This document shows, piece after piece, positions 11,992-22,920 of a DNA stretch of 33,187 nt. The translations under genes and the position numbers were made by a program. The DNA comes from an uncultured Gammaproteobacteria bacterium (GTDB taxonomy: Bacteria > Pseudomonadota > Gammaproteobacteria > GCA-001735895). The stretch lies in NCBI GenBank assembly GCA_937984095.1, contig CALJYH010000077.1, forward strand, positions 1 through 33,187, read 5' to 3'. The notes under the pieces were generated by a model. The model was not told where the DNA came from. It saw only the letters and a list, made by a program, of their open reading frames with translations, and ran no database searches. Every line of letters begins with the position of its first letter. Within the stretch, counting starts at the first letter, position 1.

Positions 11992-12408
11992 TTAAGAACC
12001 GGTGAGCGTGATCGTAAGCTTACGGCGATGAGCCCGGTAGCGGTGTTCCCACAGAAATAGACCCTGCCAGGTACCCAGTGCGAGCCTTCCGGCCTGGACC
12101 GGAATAGTGATTTCGGACTGGGTTAGCACCGAGCGTATATGGGCGGCCATATCATCGGGGCCTTCCTGGTCATGTCGGTATGCCGGGTCGCCGTCGAGTA
12201 CCAGTTTGGCGATATAGTTCTCGAGATCCCGGCGCACATCGCTATCGGCGTTCTCGGTAATGATCAGCGATGCGCTGGTGTGATGCACAAAAACATGGCA
12301 AAGCCCCTGCTCAACTCCGGAGGTCCGCAACACCTGTTCAACCTCGCGAGTAATATTAATCGTCTCACGCCCCTGGGTTTGAACCGAAATCATCTCCTGC
12401 TCAATCAT
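11992..12408 (-). CDS. yjbQ: YjbQ/UPF0047 family protein
   Basis: This 138-residue protein belongs to the YjbQ (UPF0047) family, annotated as secondary thiamine-phosphate synthase because some members complement thiE mutants weakly; the physiological role is unsettled. Conserved segments are HHTSASLIITENAD (42-55), HDQEGPDDMAAHI (79-91) and LGTWQGLFLWEHR (111-123), whose His, Asp and Glu residues line the metal-like site of solved family structures. The start at 12408 has no obvious ribosome-binding site; the Met at residue 6 has AGGAG directly against it, which is too close. Its promoter region would lie in the repeat-rich gap upstream. Confidence 0.9.
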   Translation of the reverse strand: MIEQEMISVQTQGRETINITREVEQVLRTSGVEQGLCHVFVHHTSASLIITENADSDVRRDLENYIAKLVLDGDPAYRHDQEGPDDMAAHIRSVLTQSEITIPVQAGRLALGTWQGLFLWEHRYRAHRRKLTITLTGS

Positions 12409-12465
12409 CCGACCATTCTAACACTCCGATCTCGCCAGGCGTAATTCCGAACTATCGACCGTAGC

Positions 12466-12593
12466 CACCTCGGTATATGTCCCGCAAAAGGCGCTCCCAA
12501 CCGGCGCTTGCGCGCCAGTTGGTCCATCCATGGAATCGCTTGGACCTCGGCATCCATGCCTCGGTACACTTTTGCGGGACATATACCGAGGTG
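12466..12593. repeat. Structured repeat element 1: 24-bp perfect inverted repeat with nested palindromes
   Basis: The outer arms 12466-12489 and 12570-12593 are perfect 24-bp inverted copies (CACCTCGGTATATGTCCCGC... and its complement), enclosing 80 bases. Inside are a GC-rich hairpin (12497-12507 paired with 12512-12522, one mismatch, 4-base loop TTGC) and two short palindromes around the same core, TCCATCCATGGA (12523-12534) and GGCATCCATGCC (12549-12560). It holds no convincing gene. This looks like a mobile or dispersed structured repeat of REP/MITE-like type without a transposase. Confidence 0.85.
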
Positions 12594-12670
12594 TCTACTA
12601 ATACAAATCTTGGGTGTTCGTCAAAAATCTATTCCTCGAAAGCGATTAATATGAATCTCGGCACAATCGA

Positions 12671-12781
12671 GGCGTGAGCTCCGGCATATCTTTTCAGAAC
12701 GCTGCGCAACAGGGATGTTGCGCGCGAGCCTACATGGATGTATTCACGGCGCTTCTGAAAAGATATGCCGGAGTTCTCGCC
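12671..12781. repeat. Structured repeat element 2: 21-bp core inverted repeat with nested palindromes
   Basis: The core arms 12679-12699 and 12753-12773 are perfect 21-bp inverted copies (CTCCGGCATATCTTTTCAGA...). They extend outward to 12671 and 12781 with only two mismatches, making about 29 bp. The 53-base centre has a perfect 8-bp hairpin GCGCAACA (12704-12711) with TGTTGCGC (12716-12723), then the palindrome TACATGGATGTA (12731-12742). The layout, long arms around a GCGC hairpin and a CATCCATG-core palindrome, repeats that of element 1 although the arm sequences are unrelated. It lies 38 bases after the nadB stop and could fold at the nadB 3' end. Confidence 0.82.
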
Positions 12782-12818: not shown

Positions 12819-14435
12819 TTAGATCGAGGCGAGTTTGGCTGGGCTTTTTTTGAGTTGGTTGGGGTCGAGAATGGTTGGTGAGAGAAACTTGTCGCTGGTT
12901 TTCGGGTAGTCGAGAGTAAAATGCAGGCCACGACTTTCCTTGCGCATCAGCGCTGAGCGGATGATCAGGTCAGCAACCACGACCAGGTTACGTAATTCGA
13001 GCAGATCGGGTGATACCTTGTAATTGCCGTAGTACTCGTTGATTTCGCTCTTCAGCAGGTCGGCACGACGGAGCGCGCGCTCCAGGCGTTTGTTGGTACG
13101 CACAATGCCGACGTAATCCCACATAAAACGCCGCAGTTCATCCCAGTTGTGTGCCACCACGATGTCTTCGTCCGAATCGGTAACCTGGGACTCATCCCAG
13201 CGTTCGAGAACCGGTAAGGCTGTCCTGGTTTCGATCTCTGTGGCGATATGATTGGCTGCCGCCTGCGAAAACACCAGGCATTCGAGTAGCGAGTTGCTGG
13301 CCATGCGGTTGGCCCCATGTAGTCCCGAATAGGCTACCTCACCGACGGCATACAGATTTTCCAGATCAGTGCGTCCATTCATATCGACCATGACGCCGCC
13401 GCAGGTGTAGTGGGCTGCAGGCACAACGGGTATCGATTGCTTGGTGATGTCGATGTCAAAGTCCAGGCATCGCTGATAAATAGTTGGGAAATGTGATTTG
13501 ATAAAGGCCCTGCTTTTATGACTGATGTCGAGGTAAACACAATCAATGCCGAGACGCTTCATTTCATGGTCAATCGCACGTGCGACGATATCTCGTGGCG
13601 CGAGCTCTGCACGCTCATCGAAGCGCCGCATGAAACGTTCGCCGTCGGGCAGCAATAATTTCCCACCTTCGCCACGTATCGCTTCGGTAATCAGGAAAGA
13701 CTTTGCTTCCGGGTGATAAAGACAGGTCGGGTGGAACTGAATAAATTCCATATTGGCGACGCGGCATCCGGCTCGCCATGCCATTGCAATGCCGTCACCG
13801 GTTGAGCCATCCGGATTACTGGTATAGAGATAAACCTTGCTGGCGCCGCCGGTGGCCAGGATTATCTTACGTGCCCTGAAGACGTCGACATGCTGATTCT
13901 TTCGATTAAAGGCATAAAGACCGGCGCACTTTTGCTGCTTGTGAATCAGGTCGATAGCGACGTGCTGATTGAAGATTTTAATGTTGTCGCGTTCGAGTAC
14001 GTGTGCTTCCAGCGTTTGCTGAAGAGCTTTACCTGTAGCGTCGGCGGCGTGTACAACCCGGCGGCGACTATGTCCGCCTTCGCGAGTTAAATGAAAACCA
14101 CTGCTGCTAATATCCTGGCGATCGCGCGAAAATGGCATACCGAGATCTGCGAGCCATTCGATATTTTGCCTGCCGGCACCGGCACAGAATCTTACTACCG
14201 ATGCGTCACACAGGCCGGCACCTGCCTCGATCGTATCGAGGGTATGCTGATCGATACTGTCCTCCGGCTCGAGCACTGCAGAAATCCCGCCCTGCGCCCA
14301 GTAGCTTGAATGCTGTTCGCCGGGTGTTTTGGCAAGAATCGCAATCTTGAGCGATGCTGGCAAATGCAGCGCTGCGGAAAGGCCTGCAGCGCCAGAGCCG
14401 ACGATAATTACGTCGAATTTAGATTGAATCGGCAT
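12819..14435 (-). CDS. nadB: L-aspartate oxidase
   Basis: NadB is a flavoenzyme that oxidises L-aspartate to iminoaspartate, the first step of NAD synthesis. I choose ATG 14435 (MPIQSKFDVIIVGSG, 538 residues, like E. coli NadB at 540); an AGGG lies upstream, and the frame's extension to 14483 is not conserved-looking. The FAD dinucleotide motif is VGSGAAG (12-18). Other family hallmarks are SSYWAQGGISAVL, TREGGHSRRRVVHAAD, the NPDGSTGDGIAMAWRAG segment and the C-terminal GLHGANRMASNSLLE. NadA and NadC are not in the window. In many gammaproteobacteria nadB lies divergent to rpoE, as here. Confidence 0.97.
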   Translation of the reverse strand: MPIQSKFDVIIVGSGAAGLSAALHLPASLKIAILAKTPGEQHSSYWAQGGISAVLEPEDSIDQHTLDTIEAGAGLCDASVVRFCAGAGRQNIEWLADLGMPFSRDRQDISSSGFHLTREGGHSRRRVVHAADATGKALQQTLEAHVLERDNIKIFNQHVAIDLIHKQQKCAGLYAFNRKNQHVDVFRARKIILATGGASKVYLYTSNPDGSTGDGIAMAWRAGCRVANMEFIQFHPTCLYHPEAKSFLITEAIRGEGGKLLLPDGERFMRRFDERAELAPRDIVARAIDHEMKRLGIDCVYLDISHKSRAFIKSHFPTIYQRCLDFDIDITKQSIPVVPAAHYTCGGVMVDMNGRTDLENLYAVGEVAYSGLHGANRMASNSLLECLVFSQAAANHIATEIETRTALPVLERWDESQVTDSDEDIVVAHNWDELRRFMWDYVGIVRTNKRLERALRRADLLKSEINEYYGNYKVSPDLLELRNLVVVADLIIRSALMRKESRGLHFTLDYPKTSDKFLSPTILDPNQLKKSPAKLASI

Positions 14436-14504
14436 GATTACCCTGGGTGGAAGTTCAACCCAGTATAGTGAAATCCTTCGCAACTCAAAACCCCGGAGTG
14501 GGCA

Positions 14505-22252: not shown

Positions 22253-22920
22253 ATGCCGACAAATTCTGCAACCTTACCGGATACCAATTCAGGCAGCAGG
22301 ATTTACTGGAACAGGCGCTTACCCATCGCAGTTATTCACGTAGCAAAAATAACGAGCGACTCGAGTTTCTCGGCGACAGTATCCTCAATCTGATCATTTC
22401 AAACCATATCTATTTGCGTTTCACAGATGCCGACGAGGGGGACCTGAGTCGCATTCGCGCATCCCTGGTAAAAGAAGAATCACTGGCTCAAATCGCCATG
22501 GATGTTGGCCTGGGTGATCATATTCGCCTGGGTGGCGGCGAGTTGAAAAGTGGGGGATTTCGTCGAGCATCCATTCTATCTGACGCACTGGAAGCATTGA
22601 TTGCTGCCATTTATCTCGACAGTGATTATGCCCAGACCGAAGCTACTGTTCTGCGTTTATACCATGGACAGTTGCAAACCGTCGATGAAAACGCCAACCT
22701 GCGTGATCCAAAGACCCAATTGCAGGAGTATCTGCAGGCGAGAAAGATGCATTTGCCCCGTTACCAGGTAGAACAAACCAGTGGTAAATCTCATAACCAG
22801 GTTTTTACCGTAAGCTGTAATATCACTGATCTCGAACTACAGAGTAAAGGCAAGGGGTCTAGTCGCAAAAAAGCAGAACAACAGGCCGCACAAGAAATAT
22901 TAGACAAACTGGAAACATGA
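22249..22920 (+). CDS. rnc: Ribonuclease III
   Basis: RNase III cuts double-stranded RNA, maturing rRNA and processing messages such as rpsO-pnp. The 223-residue protein has the catalytic signature ERLEFLGDS (36-44), with metal ligands Glu39, Asp43, Asp112 and Glu115, followed by a double-stranded RNA-binding domain (about 153-223, KSHNQVFTVSC and SRKKAEQQAAQEIL). The start is GTG at 22249, overlapping the previous stop; there is no in-frame ATG at the N-terminus. Confidence 0.97.
   Translation: MNADKFCNLTGYQFRQQDLLEQALTHRSYSRSKNNERLEFLGDSILNLIISNHIYLRFTDADEGDLSRIRASLVKEESLAQIAMDVGLGDHIRLGGGELKSGGFRRASILSDALEALIAAIYLDSDYAQTEATVLRLYHGQLQTVDENANLRDPKTQLQEYLQARKMHLPRYQVEQTSGKSHNQVFTVSCNITDLELQSKGKGSSRKKAEQQAAQEILDKLET

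Follow-up and report, generated by a model that had tools for sequence, protein, structure and literature searches.

Two palindromic repeats of a dispersed, MITE-like kind, referred to here as elements A and B, lie side by side in a 410-bp spacer flanked by a UPF0047 (YjbQ-type) gene (11992–12408, minus strand) and nadB (12819–14483, minus strand; an L-aspartate-oxidase-like FAD protein by Pfam). The spacer lies in the window, that is, the whole stretch of 33,187 nucleotides that was analysed, and the genome assembly it belongs to comprises 1.97 Mb and is 62.7% complete. Element A represents a new family of this genus, while the sequence of element B relates it to YPAL/RU-2, a repeat of Yersinia. 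We consider it fairly probable that these elements are YPAL/TwoAYGGAY-like mobile repeats, spread throughout the Gammaproteobacteria, whose RNA would present paired sites of the CsrA/RsmA type.

Architecture of elements A and B

Three short palindromes had been listed in a preliminary description of the spacer, TCCATCCATGGA (12523–12534, plus strand), GGCATCCATGCC (12549–12560, plus strand) and TACATCCATGTA (12731–12742, read on the minus strand). All of them are indeed present, and they constitute the tips of two larger palindromes. Element A (12461–12598, with the CANGGAYG-sense strand being the minus strand) is a long palindrome built around three hairpins, where the left (12461–12490) and right (12569–12598) outer arms, which have no strand of their own, are 30 nt long and 97% complementary, and co-vary over the copies. 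Its hairpins, in the minus-strand sense, are a GC-rich one devoid of a GGA loop, CCAACCGGCGC..GTTGG (12497–12522), and two with an NGGA loop, TCCATGGATGGA and GGCATGGATGCC, which correspond to TCCATCCATGGA and GGCATCCATGCC, respectively. Element B (12671–12781, CANGGAYG-sense strand plus) is a long palindrome around two NGGA hairpins with a YPAL/Ysr224-like core, and its outer arms (12671–12699 and 12753–12781), again without a strand and co-varying, are 29 nt long and 93% complementary. The first B hairpin, TACATGGATGTA on the plus strand, is the third palindrome of the list, while the second, GCGCAACAGGGATGTTGCGC with a GGGA loop (12704–12723, plus strand), is a fourth palindrome, GCGCAACATCCCTGTTGCGC on the minus strand, which the list had missed.

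Whether treated as DNA or as RNA, both elements fold into a long stem leading to a junction with the small hairpins. The folding z-scores of the long arms as DNA were -12.0 and -10.1, far beyond chance, and as RNA the minimum free energies were -88.1 kcal/mol for A and -69.2 kcal/mol for B, each with a z-score of -10.5. The eight-base core CATCCATG taken alone is not significantly enriched in the window (4 matches versus 1.5 expected, with 6 of 100 shuffles as high), and its fourth match, at 22497–22504, has unpaired flanks. A chance origin was ruled out by the folding z-scores together with the genome-wide count of CATCCMTG, which occurs 218 times as compared with 27 for the reversed control pattern.

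Repeat copies, paired changes and the strand that folds

Element A is present in about 20 copies in its own genome and element B in about 16, often as pairs in which A is followed by B on the opposite strand, the spacer between them being mostly of ~10 bases and of ~70 in the window. Copies of either element may contain further hairpins, CCGATGCGTCGG and a CCCGG..TATCA block, which are optional and differ between orthologous copies. The small hairpin CCGATGCGTCGG was observed inserted at varying points of the A and B cores (e.g. at loci L011, L015, L039 and L046), like an exchangeable module.

The preliminary description had interpreted the flank pairs TC/GA, GG/CC and TA/TA around the fixed core as compensatory outcomes of selection on a hairpin or on a symmetric protein site. 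These pairs are no such outcome: they belong to three different positions, spread over the two elements, and each of them hardly varies from copy to copy. Selection on hairpins finds its evidence over the repeat family instead, as both sides had changed with pairing kept in 26 of 51 pairs among 16 aligned A copies and in 21 of 43 pairs among 14 aligned B copies, and none of 500 shuffles reached the observed covariation score of the two alignments. These paired changes sit in the outer arms and in the second hairpin of B, and the three listed sites do not differ from one another in this way. As evidence against hairpins, the preliminary description had named the finding of random flanks at further CATCCATG sites, and outside the repeats such flanks do occur. 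In fact, when the flanks of 106 distinct sites were read, the first two flanking bases were complementary in 55 and 58 of them (chance ~26), an excess due to the sites within repeat copies, the flanks of all the other sites being random. This does not refute the hairpins, since the latter sites are unrelated chance 8-mers.

The B locus of the window, compared by eye with that of a congener of ~90% flank identity, differs at about four arm positions where both partners of the pair have changed and at two where one partner has. This mostly two-sided change in an orthologous copy, which includes C-G to G-C swaps, would also be produced by arm-to-arm copying at replication (quasipalindrome correction or arm recombination), with no selection on the fold. 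Moreover, between the orthologous loci L032 and L313 the B core is inverted within kept arms, L313 also carrying extra hairpin modules, and this inversion suggests arm recombination. Arm-to-arm copying may be a contributor; as the explanation of the repeats it is very improbable, since it has no strand preference and so cannot give the mismatch asymmetry described below.

Mismatches in the arms were counted on the CATGGATG strand of 60 non-redundant B-type copies taken from a wide search, yielding 75 G-T, 16 A-C and 78 others (p 2.7e-10 versus equal G-T and A-C). The A copies of two genomes gave 27 G-T versus 9 A-C (p 0.004), and the asymmetry was absent when the own genome was taken alone (10 versus 8). 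Any process at the level of double-stranded DNA would leave both mismatches equally frequent. The folded molecule is therefore a single strand, either RNA or ssDNA, of CATGGATG sense, although a similar asymmetry could also arise from a strong strand bias in mutation. The idea that the arms lack G-U pairs, hence reflecting an effect at the DNA level, was rejected, as it stemmed from counts of the CATCC strand; on the other strand, G-T pairs are common. In general, comparing G-T with A-C mismatches in fast-changing arms represents a simple test for which strand is the working one in a palindromic repeat. The second option raised in the preliminary description, a symmetric site in double-stranded DNA recognised by a dimeric protein, would suit the perfect short palindromes. 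Nevertheless, it is scarcely credible, because such a site would not yield a large excess of G-T over A-C on one strand, and both the long arms and the GGA loops on stems of unrelated sequence argue against it.

Conserved loops and putative CsrA/RsmA sites

On the folding strand, the loops read CATGGATG, CAGGGATG, CAAGGATG, CATGGACG, CAGGGACG and CAGGACG. The search pattern consisted of hairpin 1 only, so that hairpin 2 provides a fair test. In 47 aligned, diverse B-type copies, selected for an alignable hairpin 2, the fixed bases of this hairpin were C (46), A (44), G (47), G (46), A (46) and G (46), the third position being T, G or A and the seventh being T or C in 44, while its stem columns made use of all the bases with compensating pairs. 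In a wider and less selected set, GGA was found in the apical loop in 50 of 57 copies, across 33 stem contexts, and the GGA-to-GGA distance was 23 nt in 39 of 50 copies. CANGGAYG is the RsmA consensus (PMC7705225), and CsrA recognizes the consensus RUACARGGAUGU, with GGA preferred in a hairpin loop (PMC4347634). The first hairpin of B, TACATGGATGTA, is near this CsrA SELEX consensus, and the hallmark of CsrA/RsmA-type targets, CANGGAYG/GGA in hairpin loops with two of them per RNA, was found in the elements. The second hairpin has a TCCA loop and is of the opposite sense in certain copies from Methylotuvimicrobium. Composite copies, with CATCCATG-type hairpins of opposite sense followed by more hairpins, were seen at L059, L088, L064, L150 and L163 (Methylomicrobium/Methylotuvimicrobium and similar).

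The mechanism we propose is that RNA of one strand would fold in such a way that the long outer stem displays two NGGA-loop hairpins in a CANGGAYG context, these most likely being putative sites for one CsrA/RsmA dimer. If the spacers are transcribed, read-through transcripts of the neighbour genes would carry candidate CsrA-docking hairpins, which may serve as decoys or alter transcript stability. Since the GGA strands of A and B are opposite within a pair, only one of the two elements is in the CsrA sense per transcript. Were the loops to bind CsrA/RsmA, the repeats would amount to mobile sponges or to elements that spread its regulon, for which CLIP-seq of CsrA and RNA-seq, in Yersinia as in other Gammaproteobacteria, would offer a direct test. 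The sponge RNAs CsrB and RsmX/Y/Z are the products of dedicated sRNA genes, with many sites and under GacA/UvrY control. Elements A and B share with them the GGA-loop hairpins in CANGGAYG context, but contain two sites per element and are scattered in spacers.

Regarding the distribution of the regulator, a B-class covariance model, applied at E 1e-4 to 299 Pseudomonadota genomes, matched 21, which are without exception Gammaproteobacteria, and csrA was found in all 21, as compared with 157 of the 299 overall, a difference confounded with phylogeny. The genome of the window has two csrA matches. One genome of the phylum sample, G174, combines at least 15 B-class matches with nine csrA matches.

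The placement of the elements bears on a further possibility, namely that they are selfish or structural stabilisers of mRNA 3' ends, or read-through barriers, acting through the outer stem without binding any particular protein. The GGA strand was co-directional with the 5' neighbour gene in 38 of 63 elements (p 0.13, not significant), and convergent spacers were favoured over divergent ones (22 versus 9); a cis-regulatory role in 5'-UTRs was discarded on account of the lack of orientation bias and this preference for convergent spacers. The same preference, the high stability of the folds and the possible effect of YPAL on the stability of upstream transcripts (PMC2229807) are consistent with 3'-end stabilisers. 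This explanation is nonetheless improbable, as it leaves unexplained why the CANGGAYG loop bases are kept amid changing stems.

The likeness to CsrA/RsmA sites would be a mere coincidence if a transposase read the NGGA-loop hairpins in single-stranded DNA of one strand, in the manner of the RAYT/IS200-type enzymes that act on REPs. In fact, ssDNA of one strand would also favour G-T over A-C, and the high copy number, the presence or absence of elements between congeners and the turnover at the same spacer all suit mobility at the DNA level. As an account of the hairpins we regard this as rather unlikely, since hairpin recognition does not need long variable arms, chance agreement with every fixed base of CANGGAYG is not to be expected, and no recurrent transposase or recombinase appeared in the 1.5 kb around the far cores, where 1522 ORFs were examined. 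Among these ORFs, no RAYT was found adjoining the copies either, and the ORF clusters corresponded to repeat-derived frames, housekeeping genes and a regulator-like family in three loci. Under the reading as carriers of paired CsrA/RsmA-type sites, the elements, as non-autonomous MITEs, may still be moved by a cognate transposase with the same ends.

Relatives of the elements and turnover between congeners

An exact search with the 19-base B core returned at least 117 stretches, the matches listed including Yersinia, Marinobacter, Methylotuvimicrobium, Cellvibrio, Haliea, Lysobacter, Alteromonas and many uncultured Gammaproteobacteria. The usual B-type layout consists of a variable arm, GACCGT, hairpin 2, CGAGCC-TACATGGATGTA-TTyACGGCG and a variable complementary arm. 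The Yersinia copies are YPAL/RU-2, according to the RU-2 sequence in Table 1b of PMC2759123. YPAL/RU-2 (Rfam Ysr224, RF02770) resembles B in its 26-nt core CGAGCCTACATGGATGTATTyACGGCG, in the second NGGA hairpin ahead of this core, in the long palindromic arm pair and in being intergenic, multicopy and mobile-looking, whereas the arms and ends are unrelated and B-type copies are found far outside Yersinia. B carries the TACATGGATGTA hairpin and the adjoining NGGA hairpin which identify the YPAL/RU-2 core, while its score against Ysr224 (33.1 bits, E 7e-6) is under the gathering cut-off of 70 and the similarity does not extend over the whole element of ~168 bp. YPAL was reportedly described in 2006. 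The literature searched yielded neither an established function of YPAL nor a paper tying CsrA to it.

Element A scored 32.1 bits (E 0.003) against TwoAYGGAY (RF01731), under the gathering cut-off of 43, and no part of the window matched Rfam at gathering score. TwoAYGGAY likewise has two AYGGAY-loop hairpins within one outer stem, which is poorly conserved, but A contains a third, GC-rich hairpin and a core sequence of its own; the part of the Rfam entry that we consulted does not describe TwoAYGGAY as a dispersed mobile repeat. Genuine members of TwoAYGGAY neighbour A copies in this genus. Matches above the cut-off were obtained for 12 of its 31 genomes analysed, and in the own genome a full match directly adjoins an A copy. 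To our knowledge, Ysr224 and TwoAYGGAY are Rfam entries with no known role. CsrA binding has been proposed for TwoAYGGAY from the same kind of loop evidence (PMC4333381). A wider proposal, offered tentatively as a real possibility, is that YPAL, TwoAYGGAY and the A family are branches of one mobile-element class, which would disperse putative paired CsrA/RsmA hairpins into spacers, titrating the regulator or recruiting transcripts to its regulon.

REP/BIME (RAYT) and ERIC sequences are likewise short intergenic palindromes that recur, frequently arranged as opposed pairs (PMC3733652), but the arms of A and B are much longer than those of REP/BIME (29–30 bp, in elements of ~110–140 bp), and neither element contains the palindromic unit of 20–40 bp with an unpaired GTAG or CGTC tag which defines REPs of this type. 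A plasmid or phage origin was discarded, since two Sagittula plasmids gave no more than partial matches of low strength and phages gave none; a single IMG/VR contig was matched, and its copy is of the Yersinia YPAL type.

The comparison of orthologous spacers showed elements that were kept (L001/L233, L010/L263 and L042/L282) and others that were replaced by an element with other arms, inverted or missing. Among the apparently inverted orthologues, those inspected comprise the core inversion of L032/L313, the pair L017/L262, in which two congeners carry the whole A-B segment, together with part of its flank, in opposite orientations, and L003/L284, L005/L285, L008/L267, L011/L273 and L039/L286, whose differing arms indicate turnover. 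Target site duplications of 3–26 bp, with targets at dyad symmetry, characterise YPAL/RU-2. At the orthologous empty sites no clean target duplication was obtained, these being too diverged or affected by secondary deletions: the sites of L004 and L012 are empty in congeners with a joint too diverged to be read, and L016/L309 was rejected as an empty site, since it looks like a later deletion at a CCGGGG microhomology. In the nadB spacer itself, the elements of the window are absent from congeners or other palindromes are found there. In this same spacer after nadB, the congeners G026 and G012 (loci L236 and L240, respectively) present a further palindrome class, whose core is GCGAAGTAAACCGCAGGCGGC..GAGGCATTCGC and whose complementary arms are long and variable.
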